Source of the DNA: a virus
Reading direction: 5' to 3' (one strand)
Virus record (IMG/VR): IMGVR_UViG_3300032265_000894
Location: 1 to 21,687 of that record
DNA length: 21,687 nucleotides
Both the position numbers and the translations under genes were made by a program. Positions 2,510 to 13,848 of the stretch are shown one piece after another. A model generated the notes under the pieces. The model ran no database searches. It saw nothing but the letters and a program-made list of their open reading frames with translations, and had not been told where the DNA came from. Position 1 is the stretch's first letter. Each line of letters starts with the position of its first letter.

Positions 2510-2512
2510 GCG

Positions 2513-4069
2513 ATGCAGACCAGCGACATCGAGGAGATCATCGAGCTTCGCGGCAGCATCTCACGGGTGTTCGAGGAGATCACTGAAACTCGGCGGACAG
2601 TGGCCGGCGTCTCGGTATCGCCAGAGACGTCACTTCAGTGCAGTGCGGTTCTGGCTTGCGTTCGTGTGATTTCTGAGTCGGTGGCTGCGCTGCCGTTTTC
2701 CCTGTTCAAGAAGCTCCCAGATGGCGGCAAGGAGCTTGCGTTTTCGACCCCGATGCACCGGATTTTGTCCGATGCGCCGAACGGGTGGATGACGAGCTTC
2801 GAGTTCAGGGAACTCATGCAGTCCTGGCTGCTTCTGTGGGGGAACGCCTACGCCGAGATCGTCCCTGGAAAGTACGGCTCAGTGACCGAATTGATCCCCC
2901 TTCACCCGTCGCGAATGACGGTGAAGAGGGTCGAAAACGGGAGACTGCGGTATATGTACCTCGAGCCGGGTCAGTCGACGCCGACTCCGTACAACCAGGG
3001 GCAAATCTTTCACATTCGCTGGTTGACTCAAGACGGCGTGAGCGGCTACGTGCCGACGACGCTATCGCGAGATGCGATTGCCCTCGCTCGAGCCACGGAA
3101 CTGCACTCAAGCGCGTATTTCGGCAACGGCGCGCGGCCTGGGACAGTCATGGAGGTCGACTCTCCGCTGAAGCCCGAGACGGCCGAGAGGCTTCGACAGT
3201 CCTGGGAGGAGATGCACCGAGGACCGGAGCGCTCATCGAAGACCGCTGTACTCCCGCACGGGGTTCACATCAAGGAACTCACTGCAAACAATGAGTCCAG
3301 TCAACTGATTCAGACCCGGCGGTACCAAGTCGAGGAGGTCGCGCGGTCGTTCAGAGTCCCGGCCTACATGATTGGCGATCTGACGAAGAGTTCGTACTCG
3401 TCAGTCGAGCAGCAGGGCCTGGACTTCGTCACTTTCTCGCTTGTGCCGCATCTTCGTCGGTGGGAAACGGCTGTTCGTCGCGACTTGCTCCCTGAAGGCG
3501 ACGATTATTTTGCCGAGTTCGACGTTCGCGGGCTGATGCGAGGCGACAACGCCGCCCGCGCTCAGTATTACCGCGAGCTTTGGGGCCTGGGAGTGCTGTC
3601 GATCAACGAGATCCGCACCGCGGAGGGCATGAACCCCATCCCAGAGGGCGAAAAGAGGTTCGTGCAGGTCAACATGGCCCTGCTCGAGTCGTTCACGCCG
3701 CCCGAAGAGGCCCCGCCGGAGGCCGAAACGCCGCCGCCGGAGGCCGAAGCAACCCCTCCACAACCGCAGGAGGAGTCGAGAAACGCCTCCGATCTGCTGT
3801 TTCGCGCGACCGTTCGGAAGCTTGCCGCGGTCGAGTCGGGTGGCATTCTCGAGCGCCGAAACCGCCCCGCGAAGCTCAAGGCGTGGCTCGAAGCCCACGA
3901 AAAGAGGATGAAGACCGAGCTTTTCGAGGTTTGCGAGGCTACAGGCCGCGACATTGACCAGTTCGTGAACGGTTGGATGGAGAAGTCCAAGGACCTGCTC
4001 CTCGACTGCCATCGAAGCGGACGGGAATACGAATCAGTCACCGAGGAGTGGTGCGAGAGGCACCTGTAG
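2513..4069 (+). CDS. HK97-family portal protein with C-terminal extension
   Basis: A protein of 518 residues that should form the dodecameric ring at the unique capsid vertex through which DNA passes. HK97-type portal features are SAVLACVRVISESVAALP (about 44-61), the WGNAYAEI motif (about 109-116), the HIRW segment after the wing, VARSFRVPAYMIGDL with TKSSYSSVEQQ in the clip/stem part (about 276-305), and INEIRTAEGMNPIPEG near the end of the core (about 364-379). After the core comes a Pro/Glu-rich linker (about 396-422) and a charged helical tail of roughly 95 residues ending in a Trp/Cys-containing segment. The usual family core is near 400 residues, so the tail is an addition. The ATG lies 3 bases after the terL stop. 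The ferritin-like gene follows 2 bases after its stop. Confidence 0.93.
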   Translation: MQTSDIEEIIELRGSISRVFEEITETRRTVAGVSVSPETSLQCSAVLACVRVISESVAALPFSLFKKLPDGGKELAFSTPMHRILSDAPNGWMTSFEFRELMQSWLLLWGNAYAEIVPGKYGSVTELIPLHPSRMTVKRVENGRLRYMYLEPGQSTPTPYNQGQIFHIRWLTQDGVSGYVPTTLSRDAIALARATELHSSAYFGNGARPGTVMEVDSPLKPETAERLRQSWEEMHRGPERSSKTAVLPHGVHIKELTANNESSQLIQTRRYQVEEVARSFRVPAYMIGDLTKSSYSSVEQQGLDFVTFSLVPHLRRWETAVRRDLLPEGDDYFAEFDVRGLMRGDNAARAQYYRELWGLGVLSINEIRTAEGMNPIPEGEKRFVQVNMALLESFTPPEEAPPEAETPPPEAEATPPQPQEESRNASDLLFRATVRKLAAVESGGILERRNRPAKLKAWLEAHEKRMKTELFEVCEATGRDIDQFVNGWMEKSKDLLLDCHRSGREYESVTEEWCERHL

Positions 4070-4071
4070 TC

Positions 4072-4542
4072 ATGCCCGATCCGTACAGCGACGACATTGT
4101 TCCGGCGCTCCAGGCTTCCTTGAAGCTGCACTTCTCGCAATGGGAGGCGTACGAAGGGCAGGCGAACCACTTCGAGCGGTGGGGCTACTCACAGCTTGCG
4201 AAGCTCTGGTTCGCGTACGCAAAAGAGGAGCGCGGGCACGCTCGAACTCTCATCGAACGCCTCGAGTTCTACGACATCGCGCCGGATTTGGCACACGATC
4301 CAATCGTTTGGCCGCGCCACGACTTCGAGGGGATCCTCGGCTCGAACTACGAAAGCGACCGGCAGTCTGCGGAGGCCGAGCGGGCCGGGTACGTGACCTG
4401 CGAAGAGGCCGGCGATGCCAGCGGTGCCACCATTTTTCGCGAATTGCTCAAGGGTAGCGAGGACTCGATGGCCGGCATTGAGGCCACCCGTAAGACGATC
4501 GAGCAGATTGGTCTGGACAACTACTTGGCAAACAAGGTGTAG
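4072..4542 (+). CDS. Bacterioferritin-like (ferritin-superfamily) protein
   Basis: A protein of 156 residues, almost the length of E. coli bacterioferritin (158). I start it at ATG 4072, just after the portal stop, with GAGAGG at 4055-4060. An upstream in-frame ATG lies inside the portal gene and is not needed. It looks like a four-helix bundle: HFERWGYSQLAKLWF then YAKEERGHARTLIERLEF (about 33-66) follows the bacterioferritin NWGLKRL..EMKHADRYIERILF pattern, and RELLKGSEDSMAGIEATR to IGLDNYLANKV (123-156) follows its EILRDEEGHIDWLET..IGLENYLQ end. By hand alignment E53 and H56 match iron ligands E51 and H54, and E103 could match E94. The E18 position is His (H20), the E127 and H130 positions are Ser (S129, S132), and the haem-ligand Met52 is Arg. 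A full ferroxidase centre and haem site are therefore doubtful. Its position between portal and protease suggests a structural or packaged role. The family call is firm, the function open. Confidence 0.8.
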   Translation: MPDPYSDDIVPALQASLKLHFSQWEAYEGQANHFERWGYSQLAKLWFAYAKEERGHARTLIERLEFYDIAPDLAHDPIVWPRHDFEGILGSNYESDRQSAEAERAGYVTCEEAGDASGATIFRELLKGSEDSMAGIEATRKTIEQIGLDNYLANKV

Positions 4543-6164: not shown

Positions 6165-7719
6165 CCTTCCCGGTTCGCCAGAGGAGTACCGCGCTCGCTT
6201 CGGCGCCGGCAAGAGGGCCGGAGGCAAGCCGAAGAAACCGAAGCGCGCGAGCGTTGGCTACAACAAGTTCAAGTACGCCCCTGGCTCGGGATGCGGCACG
6301 GGGTCTGGTGGCTTCAAGTCGGGCAACAACTGCTCGCAAGGCGGCGGTTTCAACACGCCAGGCGCGCCCAAGCCGCACGGCACGCCAGCAGGCGGCACCA
6401 AGCCGACCCCGACGAGAAAGCCGATTGCAGGCTTTGGCGGCAGCAAGGGCGCAACTAGCTCAATGCCCGTGAAGGCGAGCGACCTCAAGCTGGCCGTGGC
6501 TGAAGCGACGATTGCGAAAGCAGCCGCAACGGCCGCAAAAAAAGCCGCAGCCAGAGCCGCAAGGATTGCGGCAAAGAAGGCGCAGCGCAAGGCCGCCAAG
6601 AAAACCGCGAGGCTCGCCGCCAAGAAAGCCGCGAGGCTCGCCGCCAAGAAGGCCGCTCGCAAGCAGCAGAAACTGAGCGACCGTCAGGCTGCTCGCAGAG
6701 AGAGGCTGGATGACCTCGCTGATTACGTGGCAAAAGAAAAGGTCGCAAAGGGCAGGGAGAAACGAGCGAGAGCGAAGGTTGCGCCGCGGGGTGCGAACGA
6801 GACGCACGTGGACTACACGAAGCGCGTGTACGCCAAGGACATCGAGAAGCTGCATACGAAGCTCGACACTCTCGAGGCAAAACACACAGCAGCAATCGAC
6901 GCAAAGAACAAAGCAGTTCAAAAAGCGAGCGACGACGTATGGGACGCTCAGAAGGCCGGAGACTCGGCCCGCGAGGCTCATCACACACAGATTCGCAAGA
7001 CTGCAATCGCAGAATACGAGGCCGCCAAGAAAGCAGCAGTCGAGGAGTTTCATGCCGAAATCGCCAAGTTCACACAGGTTGACGGCGCTCCTCGCCTTGC
7101 TGACTTCAGGACGCAAAAGAACGTCAAGGGCACTGTCGTAAGAGAGTCTGATTACGCCACTCTCGACCCAGAAAAAAAGGTTCTTGTCGACAAGGCGAGG
7201 GATTTTTACAGGTCGATGGCGAGTTTTCGGCTGGCGGACGTCGTCAACAGAGTGAAATACAGCAACGACGCCCCGATGGATGGAGCAGCTGGATCGCATC
7301 ACCAAGGCGTTGTCAAGCTCCGCAATGACACGCACGACGGCACGGCGATTCATGAGGTCGCACATGCCGTGGAGCATGGCGACCCCGCGCGCACTTTGCG
7401 ATCTGCTGCTCTTGCGGACTATGATGCAAGAATGCTTGCGTACAAGACGAAGAACCCAAACGGCAGATGGGAAAAGCATCCCACTTTCAAGCACTACGAC
7501 GCTCCCTCGCGGATTGATCCAAGCAAGCAGGCAGACGAATGGCACTCTGAGTTGGGGTACGTTCGGCGGTACTGCGACTACACGGTGTCGGGGCGTGGGG
7601 GCATGGAGGTTGTGTCTGTTGGCATCGAGGAGCTACACATAAGGCCGAATCGCATGAGGCGAGAAGCTCGCGATCACTTCGATTTCATGCTCCTCACGCT
7701 CGCAGGAAGGTTTCACTGA
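6151..7719 (+). CDS. Head-module protein: histone-like Lys/Ala region plus HExxH metallopeptidase-like domain
   Basis: A protein of 522 residues. I choose TTG 6151, which has GGAG at 6137-6140 and gives the sensible N-terminus LDAPDLPGSPEEYRARFG, rather than an ATG at 6088 deep inside the protease gene. In order: an N-terminal Gly/Pro/Lys-rich stretch with GSGCGTGSGGFKSGNNC (about 45-61), a Lys/Ala/Arg-rich block (about 128-180) with KKAARLAA repeats like histone H1 tails, a charged coiled-coil region (about 210-330), and a C-terminal zincin-like domain. The latter has H401-E402-x-x-H405 (AIHEVAHAVEH) and, about 90 residues later, SVGIEELH with E493/E494, a plausible third metal ligand. No exact family is recognised. 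It may be a minor head protein that binds DNA or scaffold and processes or anchors capsid parts. Catalytic activity is inferred from the motif only. Confidence 0.75.
   Translation: MDAPDLPGSPEEYRARFGAGKRAGGKPKKPKRASVGYNKFKYAPGSGCGTGSGGFKSGNNCSQGGGFNTPGAPKPHGTPAGGTKPTPTRKPIAGFGGSKGATSSMPVKASDLKLAVAEATIAKAAATAAKKAAARAARIAAKKAQRKAAKKTARLAAKKAARLAAKKAARKQQKLSDRQAARRERLDDLADYVAKEKVAKGREKRARAKVAPRGANETHVDYTKRVYAKDIEKLHTKLDTLEAKHTAAIDAKNKAVQKASDDVWDAQKAGDSAREAHHTQIRKTAIAEYEAAKKAAVEEFHAEIAKFTQVDGAPRLADFRTQKNVKGTVVRESDYATLDPEKKVLVDKARDFYRSMASFRLADVVNRVKYSNDAPMDGAAGSHHQGVVKLRNDTHDGTAIHEVAHAVEHGDPARTLRSAALADYDARMLAYKTKNPNGRWEKHPTFKHYDAPSRIDPSKQADEWHSELGYVRRYCDYTVSGRGGMEVVSVGIEELHIRPNRMRREARDHFDFMLLTLAGRFH
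6605..6650 (+). repeat. 24-base tandem repeat encoding KKAARLAA
   Basis: A 22-base sequence is present at 6605-6626 and again at 6629-6650, a period of 24 bases. It encodes an eight-residue KKAARLAA unit inside the Lys/Ala-rich block of the surrounding gene. A diverged third unit (KKTARLAA) begins just upstream. The in-frame period suggests recent duplication within a basic, histone-like segment. Confidence 0.8.
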
Positions 7720-8006
7720 TGCTCCCTACTCGAAAGATCGTCGGCAATGGCTGGGCACTTCAAGTCAATGCCGCAGAATTGAAGTACGACTCGTCCGGTG
7801 ACGCCGATGTTGTTTTCGGCATGGTGGAAAACGAGTTCCCGTCGTACGAAGCGATCCCGCTCTACTCGACACAGTTCGAGTCTGGAGACGCGGCGGGCCA
7901 CCTGCCCGAAGCAATCGTCGCCTTCCTTGGCCGATGGGGGATTGAGGCTCATCTCGAGCCAGAATATCTTTCTGCAAAGATCACTGACCCAGACACTCTC
8001 ATATAG
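7719..8006 (+). CDS. Small acidic hypothetical protein upstream of the capsid gene
   Basis: A protein of 95 residues with no recognised family. The ATG overlaps the previous stop (TGATG at 7717-7721), so it is translationally coupled. The sequence alternates short predicted strands and helices (WALQVNAAELKY, ADVVFGMVENEFP, EAIVAFLGRWGIEAHL), is acidic, and has no membrane segment, signal peptide or cysteine. It is the last gene before the 178-base intergenic gap that precedes the major capsid gene. A minor head or accessory role is likely from context only. Confidence 0.7.
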   Translation: MLPTRKIVGNGWALQVNAAELKYDSSGDADVVFGMVENEFPSYEAIPLYSTQFESGDAAGHLPEAIVAFLGRWGIEAHLEPEYLSAKITDPDTLI

Positions 8007-8184
8007 GTTGCACGACAGCAGCCGCTTTCGATACTCTACAGATATGAACTTCGCCTTGCGGTGGAAACCGCAGGGAGCAGTGCGAGCGACTTGAGGATTC
8101 AAGCGCGGCGTGCTTGCGGGACCTACACCCGCCAGCCGTCGCGTTTTGTGTTGACGGCTGGCCCCAACCGGAGCCAAAACCGTC
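8007..8184 (+). promoter_or_regulatory. Structured leader RNA region upstream of the major capsid gene
   Basis: This is the only long gap (178 bases) inside an otherwise packed gene array. Four hairpins can be drawn in succession. One is a 9-pair stem (one wobble) closed by a GGAA tetraloop (8054-8062 with 8067-8075). The second is GCG(A)CTTGA with TCAAGCGC and loop GGAT (8086-8094 with 8099-8106). The third is GCGGG with CCCGC (8116-8120 with 8128-8132). The fourth is a perfect 10-pair stem (8131-8140 with 8153-8162). The third and fourth share two bases, so they compete at the edge. A weak promoter candidate, TTGCAC at 8008-8013 with TACTCT at 8032-8037, precedes them. A 16-codon frame without a ribosome binding site (8044-8094) reads MNFALRWKPQGAVRAT. 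The region probably boosts or tunes capsid mRNA stability, start or translation; the exact role is inferred. Confidence 0.55.
8131..8162 (+). other. Perfect 10-base-pair hairpin ahead of the capsid ribosome binding site
   Basis: GCCAGCCGTC at 8131-8140 pairs exactly with GACGGCTGGC at 8153-8162 around a 12-base loop. It ends 6 bases before the CGGAG of the capsid ribosome binding site (8169-8173). The bases after it are CCCAACC rather than T's, so a rho-independent terminator is not supported. A 5' stabiliser, processing site or translation switch fits better. Confidence 0.7.
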
Positions 8185-9528
8185 ATGTCGAAGAACCTCA
8201 AGCGCCTTCAGGACCGTGCCGCTGCGATCTCCGCGCGGATCAACGAAATCGCTGACCTCGAGACTCGCTCCGAGGATCAGACCGTCGAGCTTCGCAAGCT
8301 CTCGGACGAGGCCGACACGGTCAAGTCTGACCTCGAGTTCGAGCAGAAGCTCGCCGCCAAGGAGGCCGAGCTTCGCACTGTGGTCGAGCGGGCTGCCCCC
8401 GCGAGCGTCACGGCCCCGGCCCAGAAGGCTACGCAGAGCGACAAGCTCGAGATCCGCGGCATCAGCACCAGCCACACCTCGCTCAAGGCTTTCAACGAGA
8501 GCCGTGAGGACGTCGAACAGGCGTACAAGGTCGGCCGGTGGCTTCGCGGCACCATCCTCCGCAACTCGGACGACCTTCGGTGGTGCCAAGACCATGGCAT
8601 TGAGACTCGCGCCCTCTCGGAAGGCGTGAACTCGGCCGGCGGAACCCTCGTTCCCGAGATCCTCGCTGATCGCGTCATCCGGCTCGTTGAGCGGTACGGG
8701 ACCTTCCCGCCCGCCGTCGAGAACATGACGATGAGCCGCGACACGCTCGTCATCCCCAAGCGACTCACGGGCACCTCGGCGTACTTCGTCGGGGAGAACG
8801 GGGCCATCACCGAATCGGAGCCGACCTACGGCAACGTGCAGTTGATTGCCCGCAAGCTCGCCGTCTCCTGCCGCCTCTCGACGGAGGTTGTGGAGGACGC
8901 ACTTATCAACATGGCAGATGCCGTAACGGTCGAGTTTGCCACTTCGCTCGCGCTGAAAATTGACCAGTGCGGATGGCTGGGCGACGGGTCGCAGGCGACC
9001 TACGGCGGCCTCTACGGCATCACCACGAAGATCAACAACGGCAACTACGGTGCCAGCGTTGTAACGGCCGCTGCTGGTGGCACCTCCTTCGGTGCCCTCG
9101 CCCTGAGCGACTTCCTCAACGTGATGGGCAAGGTTCCGCTCTACGCTCGCCAAGGGGCGGCTTGGTATGTGAGTCCTGCTGGCTACGCTGCCTCGATGGC
9201 TCGCCTGAAGTATGCGGCTGGCGGAAATGCCGTCACGCAGATTGGTGGCCCCGCTGGCGAGACGTTCCTCGGATACCCGGTGAACCTCGTCCATGTCATG
9301 AACAGCAACCTCGCCACCGACTCGGGTGCGGTCAAGGTCCTGTTCGGCAACATGGCCCTGTCCTCGATCCTGGCTCGCCGCCGGGAGTTCTCGGTGAAGC
9401 TCTACGATCAGGTCTACGCGACCACGGATCAGCTTCTCCTCCAGGGAACGATGAGGTTCGACATTAACCATCACTCCCTCGGGGACGCCAACACGGTCGG
9501 CCCGGTGGTTGCTCTCAAGACTGCCTGA
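8185..9528 (+). CDS. HK97-fold major capsid protein with N-terminal scaffold (delta) domain
   Basis: A protein of 447 residues that forms the icosahedral shell. Residues 1 to about 75 are a charged coiled coil (RLQDRAAAISARINEIADLE onward) like the delta domain that acts as internal scaffold and is removed by the prohead protease. The mature part probably begins near residues 142-153, where RALSEGVNSAGGTLVPE matches the place and style of the HK97 cleavage region. After that come typical features of the family: LVPEILADRVIRLV (about 154-167), ENGAITESEPTYG, the LSTEVVEDA helix, IDQCGWLGDGS, and the C-terminal FLGYPV and FDINHHSLGDAN segments. The ribosome binding site is CGGAG at 8169-8173. 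Upstream lies the structured leader, as expected for the most abundant virion protein. The cleavage point is inferred by analogy. Confidence 0.93.
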   Translation: MSKNLKRLQDRAAAISARINEIADLETRSEDQTVELRKLSDEADTVKSDLEFEQKLAAKEAELRTVVERAAPASVTAPAQKATQSDKLEIRGISTSHTSLKAFNESREDVEQAYKVGRWLRGTILRNSDDLRWCQDHGIETRALSEGVNSAGGTLVPEILADRVIRLVERYGTFPPAVENMTMSRDTLVIPKRLTGTSAYFVGENGAITESEPTYGNVQLIARKLAVSCRLSTEVVEDALINMADAVTVEFATSLALKIDQCGWLGDGSQATYGGLYGITTKINNGNYGASVVTAAAGGTSFGALALSDFLNVMGKVPLYARQGAAWYVSPAGYAASMARLKYAAGGNAVTQIGGPAGETFLGYPVNLVHVMNSNLATDSGAVKVLFGNMALSSILARRREFSVKLYDQVYATTDQLLLQGTMRFDINHHSLGDANTVGPVVALKTA

Positions 9529-10005: not shown

Positions 10006-10023
10006 GGACGGCCATGGACGGCC
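10006..10023. repeat. Short direct repeat GGACGGCC in the spacer before the glycosyltransferase-like gene
   Basis: GGACGGCC occurs at 10006-10013 and 10016-10023, separated by AT. It lies in the 73-base spacer after the decoration gene, which otherwise carries only the ribosome binding site AAGGAG (10057-10062). Because GGCC is self-complementary the pair could also form a small stem. No role is apparent. Confidence 0.5.
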
Positions 10024-10069
10024 GACAAGGCGCACGGAAGCGCGCCCGCTCCACACAAGGAGCGATCCC

Positions 10070-10798
10070 GTGCTGATTCGACTTGGAAGTGTCGAGGCGA
10101 ACCTCAAAGTCGCGGCGGTCATGAGTACCCCGCGACTTGGATTCACCGACAACTTCTTCTGCGTCTCCCAAGCCCTCGCACCCCATGGGATCGCTCCCGT
10201 GAAGGTGACGGGGGCTTTTTGGGGCCAATGCCTCCAGCGGGCCATGGAGACAGTGTCCGATGACCACGACCTCATCGTGACCATCGACTACGACACCATC
10301 TTCACCGCGAAGACGCTCGAGGCCCTGGTCGTCCTGCTGATGCACAGCGGAGTCGACGCCATCGCGCCGCTCCAGACGAAACGCGAAAGCAGTTCGGTCA
10401 TGTTTGCCCTGTCTGGAAACACGCCAGAGCAGAAAACGTCTGTCTCTGATGACTGGTTCGGCAAGCCAGTGCAGCTTGTCGAAACGGCGCACTTCGGGCT
10501 GACCTGCATCCGCACTGAGGCTCTCCGCAAGACGCCGAAGCCGTGGTTCCAGGCCAAGGCGAACAAGAAGGGCAAGTACGACGGCGGGCACGTTGATGAA
10601 GACATCGCATTCTGGAAATCGTTTGCCAAGGCCGGCAACAAGCTTGGTGTTGCCACTCATGTCAGCGTCGGCCATGCAGAACTGATGGTCACGTGGCCGT
10701 CGCGCGCCGTCGAGGGCGGCAAAGTCCAGCAGCACACAAGCGACTACTGGGTCAACGGGCAGAACGCACCAGAGCAAGCGTGGGGTCATGTAAAATGA
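10070..10798 (+). CDS. Glycosyltransferase-like protein (GT-A fold candidate)
   Basis: A protein of 242 residues. I start it at GTG 10070 with an excellent ribosome binding site (AAGGAG 10057-10062); an in-frame ATG at 9941 lies inside the preceding gene. It begins with a Rossmann-like KVAAVMSTPRLGFTDNF. It has a DxD motif in LIVTIDYDTIF (D73-Y74-D75), expected to bind a metal and a nucleotide sugar, followed by ALVVLLMHSGVDAIAPLQ, and further on an acidic HVDEDIAFWKSF (D176-E177-D178) and VSVGHAELMVTWP. This order resembles family-2-type glycosyltransferases. It sits between the decoration protein and the head-tail connectors and overlaps the next gene as ATGA, so it is part of the structural operon. 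It may glycosylate a virion protein. Donor and acceptor cannot be read from sequence. Confidence 0.62.
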   Translation: MLIRLGSVEANLKVAAVMSTPRLGFTDNFFCVSQALAPHGIAPVKVTGAFWGQCLQRAMETVSDDHDLIVTIDYDTIFTAKTLEALVVLLMHSGVDAIAPLQTKRESSSVMFALSGNTPEQKTSVSDDWFGKPVQLVETAHFGLTCIRTEALRKTPKPWFQAKANKKGKYDGGHVDEDIAFWKSFAKAGNKLGVATHVSVGHAELMVTWPSRAVEGGKVQQHTSDYWVNGQNAPEQAWGHVK

Positions 10799-13486: not shown

Positions 13487-13512
13487 GACAATGAGCGCAA
13501 GGAGGCGCAGAC

Positions 13513-13848
13513 ATGGCTGGTGTTTCCGCACAGGGACTGACGTTCACCTTCGGTGGCACGACCATGACGGTGACGAGCGTTCAGATCAGCGACTCTCAGG
13601 ACCTTGTGGACGGCAGCCACCTCGGCATCGCCCCCAACGGTCGCAAGGAGTTCGTTGGCGGCTTCACCTCGCAACGAGAGGTGAATGTTGACGTCATTTC
13701 CACCACAATCACGACCGTCGGCGCTTCGGGCGTCATGTCGATTGCTGGTCCGCTGGCCTTCAGTGGCAATGCCACCGTTGTGTCTGCGAACATCGGCGGC
13801 TCGGTTGGCGATCTCGTCAAGGGAAGTCTCGTCCTCCGACTTGCTTGA
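13513..13848 (+). CDS. Tail tube-like protein, paralogue 1
   Basis: A protein of 111 residues, all beta by appearance, with an almost ideal ribosome binding site (AAGGAGG 13499-13505). It begins with SAQGLTFTFGGTTMTVTSV and ends with GPLAFSGNATVVSANI and VGDLVKGSLVLRLA. The next gene has the same start (SSQGTTLSFG...TVTSV) and the same end (GPYSFSGPATCVSSAI...VGDVVRGTAGFR), so the two are clear tandem paralogues. Place and fold impression suggest a major tail protein that stacks as hexameric rings to form the tube. The strong start signal suggests this is the most highly made of the three. The tail tube name is an inference from context. Confidence 0.65.
   Translation: MAGVSAQGLTFTFGGTTMTVTSVQISDSQDLVDGSHLGIAPNGRKEFVGGFTSQREVNVDVISTTITTVGASGVMSIAGPLAFSGNATVVSANIGGSVGDLVKGSLVLRLA

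Follow-up and report, generated by a model that had tools for sequence, protein, structure and literature searches.

The major capsid protein gene of a group of uncultured phages is preceded by a promoter and an RNA leader of approximately 140 nt which probably acts in cis and sets capsid translation by adopting one of two mutually exclusive folds. Comparison of the leader among relatives provides strong evidence for such a switch, and that the switch acts on translation is suggested by the modelled folds.

Occurrence of the leader

The analysed stretch of DNA, here called the window, is a virus record of 21.7 kb in which the leader lies directly 5' of a gene for an HK97-type major capsid protein.

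8185..9528, + strand: major capsid protein gene, HK97 type, 447 aa (PF05065, E 2e-31; phrog_10 major head protein)

In a nucleotide similarity search of isolated phages no similar DNA was detected, and the capsid protein was only distantly similar to proteins of isolated phages. Well over 160 IMG/VR contigs encode a related capsid protein, and the same leader is present in nearly all of those whose upstream sequence is long enough. The leader-bearing relatives were reduced to 49 non-redundant leaders (alignment A2), all of which are located 5' of the same capsid gene. A covariance model of the leader (R1) was used to scan contigs and identified one copy in each of 25 larger contigs, again before the capsid gene. 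It also recovered the leader in those pattern-matched contigs that carry it; matches to the short DNA pattern used on viral contigs were either full leader carriers or apparently due to chance. No convincing second copy was found elsewhere in the phages (two further R1 matches, E 0.02-0.05), and in Rfam, searched with strict and loose thresholds, the leader had no match at the gathering score (single chance hit, E 1.1).

Among planctomycete genomes, the leader was not found beside distant capsid homologues (25-42% identity). One leader match is present in the Planctomycetaceae genome UBA4655 (MAG), where it belongs to a prophage relic (L292) and is interrupted, with matches to two separate pieces (2512-2638 and 4217-4380); the frame between them appears transposase-like by our own reading rather than by a family search. 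In this relic (2512-4472) the capsid gene is broken after about 30 codons. A second genome of the same order encodes a capsid protein with 63% identity and has a divergent leader (77.7 bits). Because of these genome copies, the hosts of phages with this leader are most likely Planctomycetota.

Promoter and predicted transcript

The first-pass annotation had described 8007-8184 as a multi-hairpin RNA leader. The structured leader was confirmed, but its first part (8007-8043) is a promoter.

8008..8013, + strand: -35 element TTGCAC, at a fixed distance from the -10 element in relatives (rarely TTGCAG, TTGACC and similar)
8032..8037, + strand: -10 element TACTCT (consensus TANNNT), 18-base spacer to the -35 element

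The 18-base spacer was detected by script in 35 of the 49 relatives and, when the printed sequences were read by eye, also in the remaining ones except L003 (17 bases). A sigma-70 consensus promoter scan of the window gave no match, so the promoter assignment rests on this conservation; the transcript would be expected to start near 8044. Sequence 5' of the promoter varies between lineages and the leader stays constant. The small gene just 5' of the promoter (7719-8006) matched no family of Pfam or PHROGs.

That the region holds more structure than expected by chance was borne out (8007-8184: z -2.85, none of 200 shuffles as good). With the promoter part excluded the folding signal became stronger, as the predicted transcript (8044-8187) reached z -4.01 and was better than all 200 shuffles. 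The suggestion of a promoter combined with a stabilising leader is upheld for the promoter, by its constant spacing, and for a structured leader, by covariation; the stabilising role is considered below. Nothing was found in favour of a processing site. A terminator scan found no terminator, which does not favour transcription attenuation. The 16-codon frame pointed out at 8044-8094 exists, but it is not conserved among the 49 leaders, and a conserved upstream reading frame was therefore rejected: its ATG, which coincides with the predicted transcript start, occurs only in the window, L002 and L277.

Upstream hairpins P1 and P2

8054..8075, + strand: P1 hairpin, 9 pairs, GGAA loop (GGAN in relatives), two-sided changes in 9/9 pairs
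8090..8103, + strand: P2 hairpin, 5 pairs, GGAU loop, two-sided changes in 4/5 pairs

P1 is the 9-pair stem with a GGAA loop noticed earlier (8054-8062/8067-8075), and P2 is the CTTGA-GGAT-TCAAG stem, present at 8090-8103. The covariation check which had been proposed was run on the 49 relatives and revealed compensatory changes in both hairpins. The covariation totals of P1 and P2 exceeded all 500 shuffles and every slid version of the pairing, and in a swap test, in which partners are exchanged between relatives, P1 scored z -16.4 (shuffle and swap tests were computed without correction for relatedness).

While the stem sequences change, the GGA loops are kept. GGA is found in the P1 loop of 48/49 leaders; the P2 loop is GGAU or GGAC in 44/49 and UGAU in one, and the hairpin is absent in four (L004, L075, L102, L281). 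In the divergent copy from a planctomycete genome (L303) both loops are GGAU. The idea that GGAA is there as a GNRA tetraloop was rejected, because GGAU, GGAC or GGAG is found in its place in most relatives.

Five segments and two exclusive folds

Downstream of P1, five segments, an apical stem and the ribosome-binding site were delineated.

8079..8087, + strand: segment X (AGUGCGAGC), partner of Y when the site is freed; 97.4% of cells paired
8104..8114, + strand: segment Y (CGCGGCGUGCU), pairs with X or A; each pairing kept in >95% of cells
8116..8132, + strand: apical stem GCGGG/CCCGC with a 7-base loop, in 48/49 relatives
8131..8143, + strand: segment A (GCCAGCCGUCGCG), pairs with Y (8104-8114) or B (8153-8162)
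8153..8162, + strand: segment B (GACGGCUGGC), partner of A (site freed) or of A' (site hidden)
8170..8173, + strand: ribosome-binding site GGAG, 11 bases before the AUG, mostly paired in the hidden state
8173..8184, + strand: segment A' (GCCA...CCGUC), forms with B the hairpin P4, which hides the ribosome-binding site

The two remaining stems of the first-pass annotation were located as well: GCGGG/CCCGC at 8116-8120/8128-8132, and the 10-pair stem GCCAGCCGTC/GACGGCTGGC at 8131-8140/8153-8162, with 7 bases between its end and the GGAG at 8170-8173. As had been stated, they compete at their edge, where 8131-8132 are common to both. Two features had been missed: the stem of which GCGGG/CCCGC forms the tip extends further (8104-8120/8128-8143), and AGCC...CCGTC, before the AUG, is a second pairing partner for the 3' arm of the 10-pair stem. 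L003 has CGAGG/CCUCG in place of the apical stem. In segment X, AG and CGAG are nearly invariant.

In the model, the chain X, Y, A, B, A' would adopt two exclusive states, either X:Y with A:B (site freed) or Y:A with B:A' (site hidden). These mutually exclusive pairings support the switch that had been raised as one possibility. A:B is paired in 99.5% of cells with a compensatory change at 2 pairs, and the Y:A stem is paired in 95.6%. In the swap test, again uncorrected for relatedness, A:B was weakened with z -6.4 and B:A' with z -10.6, and three control pairings were not weakened; Y:A (z -2.4) and X:Y (z -1.3) vary too little for strong covariation. The alternative pairing of a single strand, B with A and B with A', is thus kept by compensatory change. 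This can be followed at position 8159 of B, which co-varies with 8134 in A and with its A' partner: the triple is G-C-G in 35 and A-U-A in 11 leaders, the A' side is unpaired in 3, and mixed cases do not occur. On the capsid tree at least 4 switches of this triple are placed, which is too few for significance in a sign test on independent switches. Because the A' partner was taken from the fold predicted for each sequence, it is a standard pair by construction, and the swap test serves as the independent check.

Ribosome-binding site and energetics

The distance from GGAG to AUG is 8-11 bases in 48 leaders. In 49/49 leaders the stretch from B to the AUG is predicted to fold into P4, including the ribosome-binding site, with a mean of -17.9 kcal/mol compared with -8.1 for 153 other gene starts on the same contigs. 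The site-hidden fold is the predicted ground state in nearly all relatives, and forcing the site-freed pairing A:B carries a mean penalty of 8.5 kcal/mol (3.2 in the window). With A:B forced, some of the models, that of the window among them, still do not leave the GGAG unpaired. Since the on state is the less stable one, either a binder or kinetic trapping is needed to reach it.

Predicted pairing was also followed along the length of the transcript, as an equilibrium calculation for each length and not as a kinetic simulation. Before B is transcribed, Y:A is predicted in 46/49 leaders; once B is present, the pairing flips to X:Y with A:B (A:B predicted in 38/49); and in the full leader, with A' present, Y:A is predicted again in 45/49. 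The window values for the same three lengths are about 1.0, 0.98 and 1.0. In the off state, which would be the ground state, Y:A would form and hence B:A', locking the GGAG in P4. In the on state X:Y and A:B would form, A' would lose B and the ribosome-binding site would be released. P1 and P2 with their conserved GGA loops would be the likely sensor, and CsrA of the phage itself or of its host might read them and bias the switch.

csrA genes of the leader phages

GGA in hairpin loops is a hallmark of CsrA/RsmA binding (PMC7652899; PMC4005645), and because of the conserved GGA loops of P1 and P2, csrA was looked for in the leader phages. One copy was found in each of the 15 leader phages of at least 38 kb, in none of 10 shorter leader contigs and in 1 of 29 unrelated control contigs of 31-135 kb. 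In the 21.7 kb fragment of the window itself csrA was not seen. Among the 50,697 phage records of an isolate collection, a match to one of these CsrA proteins is found in 69, and about 1% of phages surveyed carry csrA genes (PMC7366521). The csrA genes of the 15 relatives (L320-L334) have about 44-87 codons. Near their start the proteins retain a T-R pair, and they also retain the arginine that corresponds to R44; exceptions are one CsrA ended by the contig end and small changes in the copy of L004, a lineage which has kept csrA although its P2 GGA hairpin is missing. All 58 planctomycete genomes searched (order of G001) contain csrA, in 2 to 14 copies per genome.

Upstream of the phage csrA genes a similar promoter type is found (TTGNNN...TAGGCTAC). 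In many csrA leaders a stem can be discerned whose loop holds AAGGAG, ACGGAG or AAGGAC; the stem sequence differs while pairing is kept, and the ribosome-binding site lies within the ANGGAN loop. The computed fold of the short csrA leader is a hairpin of the ANGGAN type in some relatives and another fold in the rest. A hairpin at this position suggests that csrA represses itself.

GGA hairpins before other genes

A second conserved leader (10009-10069, folding z -5.0) precedes the gene at 10070, the second gene after the capsid gene, which has a GTG start and a weak glycosyltransferase-like match. It contains two ANGGAX hexaloop hairpins (10014 and 10034) and, adjoining the hexaloop, a hairpin over the ribosome-binding site (10048-10065). 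In 44/46 relatives an ANGGAX hexaloop on a four-pair stem corresponds to the one at 10034; its A and GGA never vary, and its N and X do so freely. As the search required A and GGA, the information lies in how often the hexaloop is met at this single place and in the variability of N and X. This pattern of fixed and free positions matches the published CsrA/RsmE rule ANGGAX (PMC4005645). Only before the gene at 10070 does the same ANGGA core occur at a recurrent position. The coding strand of the window has four such hairpins, three of them immediately before a gene start. A further possible CsrA site is GCGC-AAGGAG-GCGC at 13495-13515, an ANGGAX hexaloop that contains the ribosome-binding site of the gene starting at 13513.

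CsrA as candidate effector of the capsid leader

The spacing of 29 bases between the GGA of P1 and that of P2 falls inside the range of 10-63 bases for binding by one CsrA dimer (PMC7652899). The two hairpins are not high-affinity ANGGAX hexaloops placed directly on a stem, as the bases flanking GGAN are usually paired; an A two bases before GGA is found in 32/49 P1 loops, the window not among them, and P2 lacks the N. Variants of lower affinity are permitted under the published rule (PMC4005645). Since P1 and P2 are not textbook sites, P2 is lost in four lineages and the window fragment is without csrA, we infer the link to CsrA. On balance CsrA is the most likely effector of the capsid leader, and binding of CsrA to P1 and P2 is a serious candidate to which we give slightly less than an even chance. 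The co-occurrence with csrA could instead reflect that csrA is common in planctomycete phages, as planctomycete genomes carry several csrA genes.

CsrA usually acts by repression until late. This may also be the direction of its effect on the capsid leader. Extended to the phage as a whole, we tentatively propose that phage CsrA represses the mRNA from which it is made and, through leaders with GGA hairpins, sets the timing of head and tail protein synthesis; the capsid leader would then be a CsrA-gated two-state switch, which may soak up CsrA once late transcripts accumulate. In a literature search of open-access papers no report of a CsrA-controlled phage capsid gene or of this leader was found.

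Alternative explanations

A ligand-free kinetic timer is a real though lesser possibility. New transcripts would form A:B, be loaded by ribosomes and then relax into the hidden fold, and output would track the transcription rate. The double flip with transcript length and an off state that is the ground state are just what such a timer requires, and it would account for A:B being kept despite its instability at equilibrium; it leaves unexplained why the GGA loops of P1 and P2 persist on stems that change, including in the divergent L303. Autoregulation, in which excess capsid or another virion protein binds P1 and P2 and locks the off state in the manner of the coat-protein operators of RNA phages, would fit the strict one-to-one linkage of leader and capsid gene. 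We consider it unlikely, as the textbook CsrA-type sites before the 10070 gene and csrA point to another protein, and CsrA is the better-evidenced candidate of the two.

Many strongly expressed mRNAs have stabilising 5' hairpin leaders. P1, as a 5'-terminal hairpin, would be suitable for guarding the capsid mRNA from decay; a plain stabilising or insulating leader that does not switch is nevertheless quite improbable, because it has no need for a B segment matching both A and A', nor for a ribosome-binding site hidden in 49/49 relatives. The alternating segments also obey the logic of an expression platform, and P1, P2 and X might be read as the aptamer of a metabolite riboswitch. Such a riboswitch is very improbable, given that no known aptamer was matched in Rfam, P2 is missing in four lineages, few unpaired bases are conserved and the target is a capsid gene rather than metabolism. 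That the region, which does hold a promoter, acts only as DNA (promoter and protein-binding site) with incidental folding is scarcely credible and already contradicted by the pair counts, as compensatory changes span the transcript 3' of the promoter and slid and shuffled controls are far lower.

Comparison with known systems

The leader switch, with CsrA as its candidate effector, resembles the CsrA/RsmA leaders of glgC, hcnA, phz2 and moaA in its GGA hairpin loops 5' of the ribosome-binding site, the GGA at the site itself and the one-dimer spacing (PMC7652899; PMC4005645), and the regulator is encoded by related phages; textbook sites are located at csrA and before 10070 in the same phage group. 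For phz2 and moaA, CsrA/RsmA binding has been proposed to uncover a site that is otherwise hidden (PMC7652899; PMC4005645). The capsid leader differs from these systems in that P1 and P2 are GGAN loops closed by pairs and not clean ANGGAX hexaloops; in its built-in five-segment exclusive fold; and in its target, a phage capsid gene.

Alternative or delayed folding hides or frees the ribosome-binding site in the lambda cIII mRNA and the MS2 maturation-gene leader. The capsid leader is similar as a phage mRNA with predicted alternative folds at this site; the targets there are a lysogeny regulator and a minor protein, and neither GGA-loop hairpins nor a linked csrA are known for them. A sequence relation between these leaders is not expected. 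Translational riboswitches follow the same logic, as antisequester and sequester share one strand, but the capsid leader has neither a known aptamer nor an Rfam match.

For phage-encoded CsrA, the targets discussed have been host processes (PMC7366521; PMC11879866), whereas here the candidate targets are in the structural operon of the phages. Knock-down of one phage csrA reduced plaque formation, and according to the same 2025 paper the role of phage csrA in the phage life cycle had previously been untested (PMC11879866). Taken together, the leader represents a conserved RNA family, without a match in Rfam, from a group of uncultured planctomycete phages, with the logic of two states written in its sequence. 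It makes the role of phage csrA directly testable, with the phages' own structural genes as candidate targets.
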